Shown: one piece after another, positions 27,601-55,991 of the stretch
Layout of the letters: each line of letters begins with the position of its first letter
Position numbering within the stretch: position 1 is the stretch's first letter
Source of the DNA: an uncultured Bacteroides sp.
GTDB lineage: Bacteria; Bacteroidota; Bacteroidia; Chitinophagales; Chitinophagaceae
DNA length: 64,000 nt
Assembly: GCA_902168085.1 (NCBI GenBank)
Contig: CABHOP010000022.1
Location: 62,001 to 126,000 of the forward strand
Direction: 5' to 3'
Program-made: the position numbers and the translations under genes
Notes under the pieces: model-generated
What the model was told of the DNA's origin: nothing
Seen by the model: only the letters and a program-made list of their open reading frames with translations
Databases searched by the model: none

Positions 27601-28512
27601 TTAACACACCAATTGTTCCACAGTCGCATCAATACTTGGGTATTGGTATGTAAAGCCTGTGCTTTGCACCTTGCTGCTACTTACCGTGCAGCTCTTTAGC
27701 ACTTCTATACTCATTTCGCCCAGTGCTATCTTCAGGGCAAATGCCGGTACACGTACGGGTATCTGTATGCCTTTTTTGTGCTTGCGGATGCTTTTCATCA
27801 ATGCCGCATTGGTAACCGGTTGGGGAGATACGGCATTATATACACCGCGCATGTTTTCGTTTTCTATAGCGGCAACTATTAATCGCGACAGGTCGTCAAT
27901 ATGTATCCAGCTGATAACTTGCTTACCGCTGCCTAAGATAGGCGCTACGCCCCACTTAGTGGGCCCTTCAAATTCTTTGAATGCTCCGCTTTCCTTGCCT
28001 AATACAATGCCAAAGCGCAGTACCACCCGTCTTAAAAAATCATCTGCAAAGGCCGATGCCTGCTCCCATTGCACGCAGGTGGTTCCCAAAAAATCGTTGG
28101 CGGGCGGCATATCCTCTGTAAAGGGTTCTTGCCCCTCATCGGCCCCGTAATAGCCTATGGCCGATGCACTCACCAGCACTTTGCATTGCTGTGCATGCAG
28201 CATTACCTGGTTTACCAGGAAGTTGGTGCCTTTTACGCGGCTGTCTATTATTTCCTGCTTACGTTTTTTTGTCCACCGCTTATCGGCAATGCCGGCCCCT
28301 GCCAGGTGCACAATGCCATCAACTTCGTTCAGTGCCTTTATATCGCAGGTTTCCTTCTCAGGGTCCCAGTGGGCATATTGCAGTCCGGATGACGGTGGCC
28401 TTTTGCCCGCATTGCGGGTAAATATAATAACCCGGTACCCCATATTTACCAGTAAACCAGATACATGTGTGCCTACAAAGCCACTGCCTCCGGTAATGCC
28501 AATAGTTTTCAT
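27601..28512 (-). CDS. TIGR01777 family NAD-dependent epimerase
   Basis: MKTIGITGGSGFVGTHVSGLLVNMGYRVIIFTR; HLAGAGIADKRWTKKRKQEIIDSRV; VLRFGIVLGKESGAF. Confidence 0.9.
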   Translation of the reverse strand: MKTIGITGGSGFVGTHVSGLLVNMGYRVIIFTRNAGKRPPSSGLQYAHWDPEKETCDIKALNEVDGIVHLAGAGIADKRWTKKRKQEIIDSRVKGTNFLVNQVMLHAQQCKVLVSASAIGYYGADEGQEPFTEDMPPANDFLGTTCVQWEQASAFADDFLRRVVLRFGIVLGKESGAFKEFEGPTKWGVAPILGSGKQVISWIHIDDLSRLIVAAIENENMRGVYNAVSPQPVTNAALMKSIRKHKKGIQIPVRVPAFALKIALGEMSIEVLKSCTVSSSKVQSTGFTYQYPSIDATVEQLVC

Positions 28513-33493: not shown

Positions 33494-34564
33494 CTATCTT
33501 ATCAGGTGTTCCAGTTTTTGATTGTTGAGTATGGAAATAGCCCCGTTGTTCATATCAATAAGTTTCTCGTGTTTAAACTCTGTCAGCGTACGTATCAAAG
33601 ATTCTGTAGCAGTACCGGCAATTGAAGCCAGTTCATCCCGGCTCATATTGATAGTATAACTTCCTTCTCGTTGTTTGTGGTATTTTTTACCTAACGACAC
33701 AAGCGCCCCTGCCACCTTTTTTCGAAGTGTACTGTACGCTACGCTCAACAATTGGTCTTCTTTCTCCATTAGGTTTCTGGCCAATATGGCAATGAAATGC
33801 TTCATAACCTCCGGGCATAGCTCTATGTGTTTTTCAAACTCAGTTTTCGGTATCAAAACCAGCTCAACATCTTCGGTTGCTTCCGCTGTTTCGATATGAA
33901 ATACACCTTCGAGTAAAGGGGCATAGCCAATAAAATCATCTTCACCATACAGACCCATTACCAAATCCTTTCCATCTTCGTGACTTTTATACGTCCTGAC
34001 TTTCCCCTTCTTAATAAAATATAAAAACCTGGGTGTGCTACCTTCTTTATAAATAACTTGCTTACGGCTATATTCCATAACATCGCACGCCTCCATCAGC
34101 TGCATCAAAGGATTTTGGGAAACAGCCACTGTAGGGACTGTCAATAGTTCATTCCCAGGTATGGACATTACAGGTGCCTGAGGTGAAGAGACATTGCTAT
34201 TCGTTTTAACGCGTGCCTCTACTGCAGATAGCAAATCGTTGCCCTCAAAAGGCTTGATTATGTAATCATTAGCGCCAAGATTCATAGCCATTCTAAGATT
34301 GCCCATCTCACTTTTTGAAGTCAGAAAAATAAAAGGTATATCTTTTGTTGCTGAATGTTTCTTGAGAATATGCAATACACCGAATCCATCTATACAGGGC
34401 ATCGTAATATCGCTGATAATCAGGTCAGGCTGCCCCGTTTGAGCCAATTCAACACCTTCTTTTCCATTGGCTGCAGCAAGCACGTTATGCTGTGCCAATG
34501 TTAGTAGCTCTGCCAGGTTGAGACGAATATCCTCCTCGTCTTCAATTACAAGAATTGTGGCCAT
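33494..34564 (-). CDS. Response regulator receiver - cNMP-binding - CRP/FNR HTH fusion (REC-CRP copy 1)
   Basis: REC: ILVIEDEEDIRLNLAELLTLAQ...DLIISDITMPCIDGFG...FLTSK; cNMP fold GLYGEDDFIGYAPLLEG; HTH MSRDELASIAGTATESLIRTLTEFKHEKLI. Confidence 0.92.
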   Translation of the reverse strand: MATILVIEDEEDIRLNLAELLTLAQHNVLAAANGKEGVELAQTGQPDLIISDITMPCIDGFGVLHILKKHSATKDIPFIFLTSKSEMGNLRMAMNLGANDYIIKPFEGNDLLSAVEARVKTNSNVSSPQAPVMSIPGNELLTVPTVAVSQNPLMQLMEACDVMEYSRKQVIYKEGSTPRFLYFIKKGKVRTYKSHEDGKDLVMGLYGEDDFIGYAPLLEGVFHIETAEATEDVELVLIPKTEFEKHIELCPEVMKHFIAILARNLMEKEDQLLSVAYSTLRKKVAGALVSLGKKYHKQREGSYTINMSRDELASIAGTATESLIRTLTEFKHEKLIDMNNGAISILNNQKLEHLIR

Positions 34565-42315: not shown

Positions 42316-42381
42316 CTAATCAAAGTCAGAATGCCGGTTGATCTAAATCATACAGATGCCCCTGAGTTGTAGATAGTTTTG
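42316..42381 (+). promoter_or_regulatory. hsp20 promoter: FNR-like box TTGATCTAAATCAT (42338-42351), upstream degenerate box CTAATCAAAGTCAG (42316-42329), -7 TAGTTTTG (42374-42381)
   Basis: Centres 22 bp apart; proximal centre to -7 octamer 29.5 bp. Confidence 0.6.
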
Positions 42382-50976: not shown

Positions 50977-52035
50977 TCAATTCAGCATATTAACCAGTTT
51001 GGGTTCATTAAGTATGATAATATTGCCTTGTTGAATATCAATAATTTTTTCATCCCGGAAATCACCTAAGGTCCTGATAAACGATTCTTTCGCAGTACCT
51101 GCAATACTTGCCAGGCTATCTCGGTCTACATCTATCACCACCTGCTTATCGTCCGATGTTTTATATTTCTTATATATCATAAGCAGCGTATTAGCTACTT
51201 TTTTCCGCAATGAGCTATAAGCCAGCTGTAGTAGCTGTTGCTTCTTCTCTTCAATATTACCTGCCAGAAGCTGTAAAAACTTCATCAGAACTTCTTTATC
51301 ATTATTGAGCAAAACATCGAATTCCTTTTTAGGGATAACAACAATTTCCGAATCTTCAATAGTTTCTGCAGATTCCTGATATTTATTCCCTTCAATTAAA
51401 GCAGCATAGCCAAAAAACTCTCCCTTACCATATAAACTGGTGGTAAATTGCTTGCCTTCTTCATTGACCTTATATTCCTTGATGGTTCCGTTCTGTATAT
51501 AAAAAAGGTGCGCAGGGTGGCTTTTGGCAGAATAGATAGTGACCCCCTTATTGTACATATTCGGCTCATAGTCCGCAATAAGTTTATCCAATGCCTCTTT
51601 CCCCTGAATTTTATTTACCAGAGTTTTAAGTCCTTGTATGCCTCCGGAAAATTTTGATTCCAGAATAGCTGCCTTTTTCAGCCTTTGTTCAACAGCAGTA
51701 AGCAGTTCCGTATCGTTGAAGGGTTTTGTAATGTAATCGTCGGCACCGTATTCCATACCTTTTCTTATCTCATCGCGTTCCGTTTTTGCACTTAAGAATA
51801 TAAATGGAATATGCTGGGTTTGGGGGTTTTTCTGCAGCACATTAATGACACCATAACCATCCATTACAGGCATCAGTATATCACATATGATAATGTCCGG
51901 TTTATGTTCGATAGCAATAGCAACACCTTCTCTACCATTTTCGGCTGTCAATACTTTATAGTTGGCAAACTCTAATGTTTCGGCGGTATTTTTTCTCAGG
52001 TCAGCGTTGTCTTCAATTAGTAATATTGTTTTCAT
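50977..52035 (-). CDS. Response regulator receiver - cNMP-binding - CRP/FNR HTH fusion (REC-CRP copy 2)
   Basis: ILLIEDNADLRKNTAETLEFAN...DIIICDILMPVMDGYG; SLYGKGEFFGYAALIEGNKY; VDRDSLASIAGTAKESFIRTLGDFRDEKII. Confidence 0.92.
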   Translation of the reverse strand: MKTILLIEDNADLRKNTAETLEFANYKVLTAENGREGVAIAIEHKPDIIICDILMPVMDGYGVINVLQKNPQTQHIPFIFLSAKTERDEIRKGMEYGADDYITKPFNDTELLTAVEQRLKKAAILESKFSGGIQGLKTLVNKIQGKEALDKLIADYEPNMYNKGVTIYSAKSHPAHLFYIQNGTIKEYKVNEEGKQFTTSLYGKGEFFGYAALIEGNKYQESAETIEDSEIVVIPKKEFDVLLNNDKEVLMKFLQLLAGNIEEKKQQLLQLAYSSLRKKVANTLLMIYKKYKTSDDKQVVIDVDRDSLASIAGTAKESFIRTLGDFRDEKIIDIQQGNIIILNEPKLVNMLN

Positions 52036-53284: not shown

Positions 53285-54397
53285 TTATGCAGCGTTGGGT
53301 ATTTCTACTTCAAATACAGTTCCCTCCCCTAGCTCAGACTGCACTTGTATCGTTCCTTTCAATTTTTCTACCGTATCTTTTACCATATACAAACCAAGAC
53401 CTGAGCCTGATACATCGGCTGATATGCGAAAGAACATGTCGAATATCTTTTGCAAATTTTCCTTTCCAATCCCTATACCATTGTCCCTTACTATAATCTT
53501 GGCATAGCCGGGCGATAAAGCAATATGTACCTCTACCACAGGCGCAGATGATTGAGGATTATAATACCGGCACGCGTTGGAGATAAGATTATTCAATATA
53601 GTGACTATCCCGTTTGAGTTGGAATAAAAAGGGGCATCGCCTACTATTTCAGTTTTAATAGCAACATTTGAAACATGTCCATTCATGAATCTTAAATTGC
53701 TGACCACGTCATCCAGCAATTCTTTAAACTCTATTTGTTCAATCTTATCTCCAGCTTTTACATTCTTTGAATAACTAAGGATATCCTGAATAAATCTGTC
53801 AAGTTTATTTACACTTGTTTTTATCAGGGAAAAACTATTTAGCACCTCGGTGTCAGACACTTCCAGTTCTGAATAATTGATGATTCCCAGTATGGATGCC
53901 AATGGTGCCCTCAGATCGTGAGCTACACCATATACAAACTTATCAAGCTGCTCATTGGCTTTTCTCAATTCTTCATTATGCTTTTTCAGATTTTCTTCTT
54001 TATCAATATACTTTGTGATATCGTGCCATGTCACAATTACGCCTTCTACTGCAGGGTCGTTCAACGCGTTTTTAAACGCGCATTCGCACCACATGTATTG
54101 ACCATTCCCTTTTCTGATTCTGCATACCGCTTTTTGTGGCATTTCCCCAGTGTAGCTAGTATTCTGAATACGCTCTAAAAATGGTTTGATATCGTCGGGG
54201 TGCACGATATTTTTTATATGTATACCGGTTATTTCTTCTTGTAAATAATCCAAAGCTTGCATTACAGAATTATTTGCAAATAGTATAGTCATATCTTCAT
54301 CTACAATAACAGCCATACCAGGTAAACAATTCAATAGCCAATGGTTTTCATATTTTGCAGCTGCATCTCTCATATTATCCGGCAAGTTTAAAAGCAT
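53285..54397 (-). CDS. PAS-domain sensor histidine kinase
   Basis: PAS/PAC, FVYGVAHDLRAPLASILGIINY, ISNACRYYNPQ, RDNGIGIGKENLQKIFDMFFR. Confidence 0.92.
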   Translation of the reverse strand: MLLNLPDNMRDAAAKYENHWLLNCLPGMAVIVDEDMTILFANNSVMQALDYLQEEITGIHIKNIVHPDDIKPFLERIQNTSYTGEMPQKAVCRIRKGNGQYMWCECAFKNALNDPAVEGVIVTWHDITKYIDKEENLKKHNEELRKANEQLDKFVYGVAHDLRAPLASILGIINYSELEVSDTEVLNSFSLIKTSVNKLDRFIQDILSYSKNVKAGDKIEQIEFKELLDDVVSNLRFMNGHVSNVAIKTEIVGDAPFYSNSNGIVTILNNLISNACRYYNPQSSAPVVEVHIALSPGYAKIIVRDNGIGIGKENLQKIFDMFFRISADVSGSGLGLYMVKDTVEKLKGTIQVQSELGEGTVFEVEIPNAA

Positions 54398-54418: not shown

Positions 54419-54483
54419 CAAAGTAAAGCTGAAACAATGAAAAAGGAATTGATTTAGGTCAATCCCCGACTTATTACGATCAA
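54419..54483 (-). promoter_or_regulatory. Promoter of PAS-HK: box TTGACCTAAATCAA (minus; 54449-54462), upstream degenerate box TTGATCGTAATAAG (54470-54483), -7 TTACTTTG (54419-54426)
   Basis: Centres 21 bp apart; proximal centre to -7 octamer 29.5 bp. Confidence 0.55.
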
Positions 54484-54600: not shown

Positions 54601-54632
54601 TAATAAAAAAGCCGGCTTGAGAACAAGCCAGC
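54601..54632 (-). terminator. Rho-independent terminator of predicted sRNA (GCTGGCTTG-TTCT-CAAGCCGGC-TTTTTT)
   Basis: 9-bp stem with one G-U pair and T6 on the minus strand. Confidence 0.75.
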
Positions 54633-54688
54633 CCCTATAAACCCTATCACCATGAAAACTTCTTTATTAGAATTTCTTTTGATTTTCT
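54604..54688 (-). ncRNA. Predicted ~85-nt small RNA
   Basis: -7-like AACCTTTG (54693-54700), strong FNR-like boxes upstream, rho-independent terminator at end, no convincing ORF in this orientation. Confidence 0.5.
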
Positions 54689-54692
54689 ACTG

Positions 54693-54757
54693 CAAAGGTT
54701 AGGCAAGATTTACTTAAATACATTGATTAAAATCATTACAAGATTGATGGTTATCAA
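54693..54757 (-). promoter_or_regulatory. sRNA promoter: boxes ATGATTTTAATCAA (minus; 54723-54736) and TTGATAACCATCAA (54744-54757), -7 AACCTTTG (54693-54700)
   Basis: Centres 21 bp apart; proximal centre to -7 octamer 29.5 bp; distal box is a perfect TTGAT-N4-ATCAA. Confidence 0.6.
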
Positions 54758-55012: not shown

Positions 55013-55078
55013 ATGATTAACATCATATAAAACCTTAATAAAGGTCATTTTTGTCCTTTATTTGCCATTTTAGCTTTG
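55013..55078 (+). promoter_or_regulatory. Promoter of first nos-cluster gene: boxes ATGATTAACATCAT (55013-55026) and degenerate TTAATAAAGGTCAT (55035-55048); -7 candidates CATTTTTG (55046-55053) and TAGCTTTG (55071-55078)
   Basis: Centres 22 bp apart; proximal degenerate box is 29.5 bp from TAGCTTTG, distal box 26.5 bp from CATTTTTG. Confidence 0.5.
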
Positions 55079-55082
55079 TTAT

Positions 55083-55991
55083 GTGAAAAAGCTAATAACC
55101 TTCAGCCTCGCACTTCTTCCTTATATCACAACAGCCTGCGCGGTTTGCGGTGGTTCAGCAAGTAACCAGAATATGGCTGTACAACCACAGTTTTACAAAC
55201 ATTTTGCAGGCATACAATATCAGTATCGCTCATTTAACAGTACGCACCCCGCTGATGATGGTGATGCCAGTCATTCTAATGAACAATACAATACCGTGCA
55301 GGTATGGGGTAGGTATAACATTGGCAACCGGTTACGACTATTTGCCTTTATACCCTATATATCTAACATTCATGAAGAAGATGGGAAGAAAACTAATTGC
55401 AGTGGCCTGGGTGATATAAGTTTCCTCGGCAATATACGCGTGCTGAGCTTGAAACAACCAAGCAATGACTGGCAACATGATTTGCAAATAGGTGGGGGCT
55501 TAAAATTACCTACTGGCCACTACAATAAAGAGTCCATACTTCGTGGAGATAATTTACCCAATATGCAACCCGGTACAAAATCGTGGGATGTAACAGCCAA
55601 TACCATATACACTGCGCGCTACAAATCATTAGGTGGTACGATAGATGCATCTTATACCATTGTGACGCCCAATGCGGATGACTACAAATTTGGTAACAGG
55701 CTGAGCACAGGGGTATCTGTATTTTACTGGTGGCAAACCAAGAAGTGTACCATTTTGCCGCAAGGCGGTGTAAGGCTGGATGCTACCGGGGGCGACTATG
55801 AATATTACTCGCGAAATATAAAAAGTGATATGACAGGCGGACAGCAGCTATATATATCTGCCGGCATCCAGGCCTATTACAAATTTACGGGGATACAATT
55901 TTTATACTATATACCGGTTTACCAGCATTATGCCGACGGACTTGTAAAAAGCAAGTCACGCGCAGAAACAGGCATCTATTTCCTTTTTTAA
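55083..55991 (+). CDS. Outer-membrane-type protein with N-terminal CxxC (GTG start)
   Basis: Signal peptide then ACAVCGGSASNQNM; beta-barrel-like C-terminal segment. Confidence 0.6.
   Translation: MKKLITFSLALLPYITTACAVCGGSASNQNMAVQPQFYKHFAGIQYQYRSFNSTHPADDGDASHSNEQYNTVQVWGRYNIGNRLRLFAFIPYISNIHEEDGKKTNCSGLGDISFLGNIRVLSLKQPSNDWQHDLQIGGGLKLPTGHYNKESILRGDNLPNMQPGTKSWDVTANTIYTARYKSLGGTIDASYTIVTPNADDYKFGNRLSTGVSVFYWWQTKKCTILPQGGVRLDATGGDYEYYSRNIKSDMTGGQQLYISAGIQAYYKFTGIQFLYYIPVYQHYADGLVKSKSRAETGIYFLF

Follow-up and report, generated by a model that had tools for sequence, protein, structure and literature searches.

The minus strand of positions 54605-54688 in the DNA analysed here (a stretch of 64,000 nt, referred to as the window) is predicted to encode a small RNA that acts in trans and belongs to a new multi-copy family. 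By every sequence test at hand this sRNA is real, and its FNR/Crp-type promoter is nearly so. The family is specific to the Chitinophagaceae as far as sampled genomes go, strongly conserved and previously uncatalogued, with no Rfam family scoring above threshold. As a whole, we consider it fairly likely that the RNA belongs to such a family of trans-acting sRNAs, that its copy in the window is switched by an FNR/Crp-type activator and that it acts by pairing with start codons. The wider family and its home behind infC are a more interesting discovery than the FNR-controlled copy or the mechanism. Regulatory RNAs of Bacteroidota beyond Bacteroides are little explored. As this family spans many Chitinophagaceae genera, can be searched for by an exact sequence and has a fixed place downstream of infC, cultured Flavipsychrobacter or Taibaiella would lend themselves to tests of its function.

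The sRNA unit and its family

The FNR-like boxes, the -7 element and the terminator described in a sequence-only reading of this DNA were all found, at the following positions (G011 is the genome of a related species):

54744..54757, minus strand: distal FNR/Crp-type box TTGATAACCATCAA (= TTGATGGTTATCAA), 0 mismatches, centre at about -62.5, unchanged in G011
54723..54736, minus strand: proximal FNR/Crp-type box ATGATTTTAATCAA (= TTGATTAAAATCAT), 1 mismatch, centre at -41.5, 21 bp from the distal box
54693..54700, minus strand: Bacteroidota -7 element AACCTTTG, identical in G011
54605..54688, minus strand: predicted sRNA of ~84 nt, its start derived from the -41.5 geometry and its end from the U run
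54659..54668, minus strand: leader motif AATAAAGAAG, immediately 5' of the seed and common to the infC-linked first copies
54649..54659, minus strand: 5' seed GUUUUCAUGGU, complementary to start codons and common to FopS (see below)
54631..54648, minus strand: near-invariant single-stranded core GAUAGGGUUUAUAGGGGC
54611..54632, minus strand: terminator stem-loop of 9 bp, with compensatory changes across copies
54605..54610, minus strand: U run of the terminator

The terminator hairpin reads GCTGGCTTG-TTCT-CAAGCCGGC-TTTTTT, with its 3' end at 54605 on the minus strand. It was absent from the list of a simple terminator scan; a likely reason is that G-U pairs can lengthen the stem into the U run. 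Folding of the sRNA body reaches z = -2.8 against shuffled sequences and leaves the 5' part mostly unpaired, and the seed of the window copy is preceded by a 29-nt leader. Rfam at gathering thresholds returned only a tRNA in the window and nothing at the sRNA unit. On one side the unit adjoins genes of nitrous-oxide reduction (cytochrome c, NosZ and NosL); its other flank is formed by a PAS histidine kinase gene with an FNR/Crp-type box of its own.

The sRNA had initially been taken for a singleton, which turned out to be wrong: its 3' ~58 nt are one copy of a conserved multi-copy RNA family, with three copies in its own genome. A search of this genome with the unit gave two further sites on another contig, which match only the 3' ~60 nt (93-95%). 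Copies are present in all 15 genomes of the genus (two to eight per genome) and in several other Chitinophagaceae genera, and none were found in 24 genomes of other families of the order. An alignment (A1) and a model (R1) were built from 83 distinct copies. With R1, about 49 of 249 sampled Chitinophagaceae genomes, as counted from the search table, had matches with E < 1e-10 and carried 1-11 copies each. Strong matches in a sample of 296 genomes of the class were confined to the own family, the weak ones being mostly bare terminators. An exact 20-nt pattern occurred in named genomes of Flavipsychrobacter and Taibaiella and in many MAGs labelled as Chitinophagaceae or unassigned Bacteroidetes. 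The few differently labelled records with this pattern (Azovibrio, Phycisphaerales and a Woesearchaeote) are better explained by mis-binning of contigs or by chance. None of the viral contigs checked carry copies, and no other family of seed plus terminator was found among the examined loci. A literature search of incomplete coverage yielded no description of this Chitinophagaceae RNA, nor of an FNR-controlled sRNA in Bacteroidota.

The unpaired 5' part is nearly invariant across the family (GUUUUCAURGUGAUAGGGUUUAUAGGGGC). Columns 18-32 of the core are 94-100% identical over 115 copies; since the pattern scan demands an exact core, this value was recomputed on copies found by BLAST or the model only, with at most five differences allowed. 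The terminator stem pairs in 99.2% of the cells (83 distinct copies), six of its nine pairs have changed on both sides, and doubly changed cells number 74 versus 11.7 in shuffles. The family has an own promoter, a conserved unpaired seed and a covarying intrinsic terminator and lacks an ORF, as expected of a trans-acting sRNA. The original call of an sRNA of about 85 nt is strongly supported by the conservation, by the compensatory changes and by where the promoters lie in relatives; of the features proposed for checking in relatives, hairpin and boxes, both are kept in G011, and the hairpin covaries across the family.

Some copies have core and stem and lack UUUUCAU (L048, L050, L054, L059 and L063), others have the seed with a different hairpin (L295, L300 and L303). 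These two kinds of copies suggest a modular exchange of seed and terminator.

More than half of the distinct copies (106 of 194) lie downstream of infC, the gene of IF3, usually as a tandem pair. Such pairs were seen at about 60 infC loci from many genera, including the own genome, where the pair is situated downstream of thrS-infC (locus L033, 5628-6553, from contig C64). The order within the pair is fixed: the first copy has a leader and CATG (42/44), the second is mostly leaderless and has CATA (44/44). Over 172 copies, TTTG peaks sharply at two positions relative to GATAGGG, -20 and -47, from which it follows that many RNAs of the family would start at the seed GUUUUCAURGU and be about 55 nt long. 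In 42 of 46 leader-type copies, that is the infC-linked first ones, AAGRNG directly precedes UUUUCAU. Because the same motif is present in the window copy (AATAAAGAAG), the latter looks like an extra leader-type copy that has come under a different promoter. FNR boxes upstream of other copies occur as a pair only in the G011 orthologue, the rest being single one-mismatch sites; in total, 10 copies have any upstream box, against 4.7 expected.

The FNR/Crp-type promoter and its candidate activators

Counted from the last base of TTTG, the centre of the proximal box is 36.5 nt upstream and that of the distal, perfect box 57.5 nt. With a start 5 nt after TTTG the box centres fall at -41.5 and -62.5, which are classic activator positions, and the proximal box would thus be the palindromic TTGAT-N4-ATCAA-type site at -41.5 that characterizes a class II promoter. 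We inspected 15 perfect boxes, five of which are intergenic: two in the intergenic region of the sRNA and three beside genes of the Crp/Fnr family. The four other than the distal sRNA box, namely the box of the kinase and the three beside Crp/Fnr genes, share a spacing of 36.5-37.5 nt to TTTG. We regard this common geometry as the best evidence from sequence that the boxes would be working ones. The neighbouring features that matter here are:

54449..54462, minus strand: FNR/Crp-type box TTGACCTAAATCAA belonging to the PAS histidine kinase and distinct from the sRNA boxes, with 36.5 nt to its TTTG (54422-54419)
53285..54397, minus strand: PAS histidine kinase gene downstream of the box at 54449..54462, outside the sRNA unit
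50977..52035, minus strand: fusion of a response regulator with a Crp-type activator, a candidate for binding to the boxes

G011 has the same locus, with 92-96% identity across 6 kb. The segment that runs from the -7 element to the end of the terminator is identical except for one extra T in the terminator run, and the boxes are kept, the distal one unchanged and the proximal one as ATGATTTTGATCAA at equal distance, while neighbouring intergenic 30-nt blocks have 63-87% identity or are unalignable. The FNR-boxed copy occurs in these two close species only.

As to the activator, the genome encodes a Crp-family protein (L376) with an N-terminal CALCPSRTKSVLC motif (CALC..VLC) and an internal Cys, which makes it a four-cysteine FNR candidate, with cysteines placed like those of FNR. 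Fusions of a response regulator to a Crp-type protein (RR-Crp) are encoded as well, and Crp/Fnr relatives number at least seven in all. L376 and the RR-Crp fusions are therefore candidate cognate activators of the class II promoter. The product of a second RR-Crp fusion gene in the window (33557-33652, minus strand) is ~44% identical to that of 50977-52035. Class II geometry, conserved boxes and an encoded FNR-type protein together make control by an FNR/Crp-family activator, as first proposed, a well-supported prediction.

Which family member would bind is a different matter. It is quite possible, if short of probable, that the role of activator falls to a Crp/Fnr-family protein other than an oxygen-sensing FNR, for instance to the neighbouring RR-Crp fusion or an NO-responsive regulator of denitrification. 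The fusion encoded at 50977-52035 belongs to a cluster whose kinase has a box of matching geometry, and the three intergenic boxes beside other Crp-family genes indicate that this type of box serves several members. On the other hand, a four-cysteine FNR-type protein is present, and the boxes fit the FNR/NNR consensus best. With an FNR-type activator, depletion of oxygen should turn on the window copy. If true, such a copy beside nosZ would mean oxygen-linked RNA control in a bacterium that consumes N2O.

The kinase box reads TTGAC-N4-ATCAA and, with 36.5 nt, has the spacing of the proximal sRNA box. Given this exactly equal spacing, the cluster of kinase, response regulator and RR-Crp fusion is probably under like control. 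The three perfect boxes beside Crp/Fnr-family genes elsewhere in the genome (L388, L391 and L395 on contigs C25, C45 and C60) are located upstream of other genes with the -41.5 geometry and probably represent local pairs of regulator and target. Two further sites in the window deserve mention. A palindrome (ATGATTAACATCAT, 55013-55026) upstream of the gene at 55083, where the nos side starts, is conserved in G011; it has 2 mismatches to the box, and its distance to TTTG (33.5 or 44.5) does not fit. A one-mismatch box (TTGATCTAAATCAT, 42338-42351) lies ~250 nt upstream of a PAS kinase gene (42087) that is itself a possible target of the sRNA.

Boxes as such are not enriched: eight one-mismatch boxes in the window compare with 4.55 expected, which is not above chance, and TTGAY-N4-RTCAA occurs 16 times in the genome versus 15 times for the reversed control. 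That the unit is an ordinary terminator with coincidental boxes, as these counts taken by themselves would permit, is nonetheless hardly conceivable in view of the conservation of the family, the covariation, the exact operator-promoter geometry and the conservation in a second species.

Seed, possible targets and proposed mode of action

We propose that a change in oxygen or another signal would cause an FNR/Crp-family activator to bind both boxes and to switch on the window copy, which would raise the dose of a seed supplied by default from the infC-linked copies. The 5' arm (seed GUUUUCAU(G/A)GU) would then pair around mRNA start codons (..ACCAUGAAAAC..) and block the entry of ribosomes, an RRM protein probably helping or antagonising the pairing; the outcome would be less synthesis of proteins that are unwanted during N2O respiration. 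The pairing step is derived from the seed and from the FopS RNAs of Bacteroides, a set of 14 short paralogues that are transcribed from canonical promoters, use a 5' seed to block susC mRNAs at their translation starts and are opposed by the RRM protein RbpB (PMC11697453). We consider this a good analogy.

Start-codon pairing had been suggested on the grounds of complementarity to a generic start region. It is still plausible, as the seed UUUUCAUGGU is shared with FopS, which pairs in this way, but a significant target set did not emerge. Target prediction at translation starts gave duplex energies that, at 355 gene starts sampled from a relative (G004, 400 kb), were no better than those of shuffled seeds, and starts of TonB/SusC genes showed no excess of duplexes. 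A scan of the own and genus genomes for patterns of extended complementarity found sites mostly within genes, at gene ends or in non-conserved positions. Across 52 genes of the window the mean z was -0.22, the best value being -5.1 at 28512 (minus strand). Strong duplexes are predicted at the AUGAAA starts of three minus-strand genes: an epimerase-like gene (28512), the PAS kinase gene (42087) and the RR-Crp gene (52035). With 52 genes tested and such a mean, these are leads only.

This lack of target enrichment would be accounted for if the same RNA had a protein as its partner, e.g. an RbpB-like RRM protein, and did not pair with mRNAs, so that copy number would tune the amount of free protein. 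The roughly 25 conserved unpaired nucleotides are longer and stricter than a usual seed, multiple copies would act by dosage, most relatives encode RRM proteins (with four matches in the own genome), and FopS RNAs do bind RbpB (PMC11697453). RRM proteins are, however, also found in relatives devoid of the RNA, which means that the link is not exclusive, and the 5' end fits a start-codon context, just as that of FopS does. We rate protein binding as rather unlikely, albeit worth keeping in mind.

In the leader-type copies, i.e. the infC-linked first ones and that of the window, AAGAAG-N5-AUG is conserved and resembles a translation start, with no conserved protein behind it. It is a rather far-fetched idea that the family intervenes directly in translation initiation, be it as a decoy start site or as a switch linked to the initiation factor, with a default pair behind infC and an FNR-controlled copy for reinforcement under anoxia. 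Even less credible is a small protein (MVIGFIGAGLFSSRLFY) encoded instead of, or besides, the RNA regulator. The conserved AAGRNG lies 5 nt 5' of AUG in 42 of 46 leader copies, which have AUG nearly always, and it is the short second copies that carry AUA; yet the frame is broken by stops (in several copies, inside the hairpin) and by hairpin changes. The coding ORF MVIGF... was rejected, since the third codon positions of the core do not vary, matching the other two in conservation among distinct copies, and since the start codon has often been lost (AUA in place of AUG in 28 of 83 distinct copies); the absence of a convincing ORF had been asserted from the outset.

Comparison with the L20 leader, FnrS and FopS

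The L20 leader (RF00558) resembles the family in that there is a weak match of 27 bits, mainly in the terminator region, and in that the home of the family adjoins infC. Unlike this leader, which precedes infC/rpmI/rplT, the family sits downstream of infC. The assignment was rejected, as the score is below the gathering threshold of 58.7 and none of the 32 infC loci with sufficient sequence has rpmI/rplT following the RNA.

FnrS of E. coli and similar sRNAs are transcribed from promoters with FNR-type boxes and are expected to rise without oxygen. The window sRNA shares with FnrS the position behind such a promoter. It differs in having two boxes and in belonging to a multi-copy family, FnrS being a singleton. 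The claim that the likeness concerns the logic of the layout only holds, as an Rfam scan up to E 10 gave no FnrS match to the window sRNA.

The closest parallels are with FopS (RF04319; relative GibS). Both are multi-copy RNAs of 55-70 nt, mostly intergenic, in which transcription from a canonical Bacteroidota promoter begins at the seed and an unpaired 5' arm is followed by the terminator. The seed UUUUCAU(G/A)GU with the same variable G/A, on an arm unpaired from the transcription start, is found in the family as in FopS, the window copy having a leader in addition. Behind the seed the two diverge (core GAUAGGGUUUAUAGGGGC in the family versus AUUAGAUUUAAGGUUAA in FopS). The home behind infC and the FNR/Crp-controlled copy are without a FopS counterpart, and the setting differs as well, with nearly no SusC targets in the own genome, where one SusC-type gene scored above the cut-off.

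Descent of both from an ancestral RNA that has spread over the phylum is conceivable but doubtful. RF04319 aligns end to end with the window copy (22.7 bits, E 0.07-0.22), and seed, G/A variation and the start-at-seed promoter layout are shared. A FopS-like match of 34.4 bits also exists in a third family (L252/L306 in genome G215, with GTTTTTTTCATAGTTTAGGTTTTAGG followed by a terminator), which is possibly a FopS-like RNA of a third lineage. Against this, the scores (20.1 bits for both infC copies) stay below the gathering threshold of 56, R1 misses all nine FopS loci searched, even at E 10, and the FopS model is without a match in the Chitinophagaceae. The extended seed R1' of FopS (AUUAGAUUUAAGG) has a partial, gapped similarity with p ~0.007-0.03 versus dinucleotide shuffles. 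Because of the sub-threshold score, the failure of R1 to find FopS loci and the single SusC gene, we say that the family appears to work like FopS, and not that it is FopS. A comparison of the two could show whether RNAs that pair with start codons are a theme of the whole phylum.
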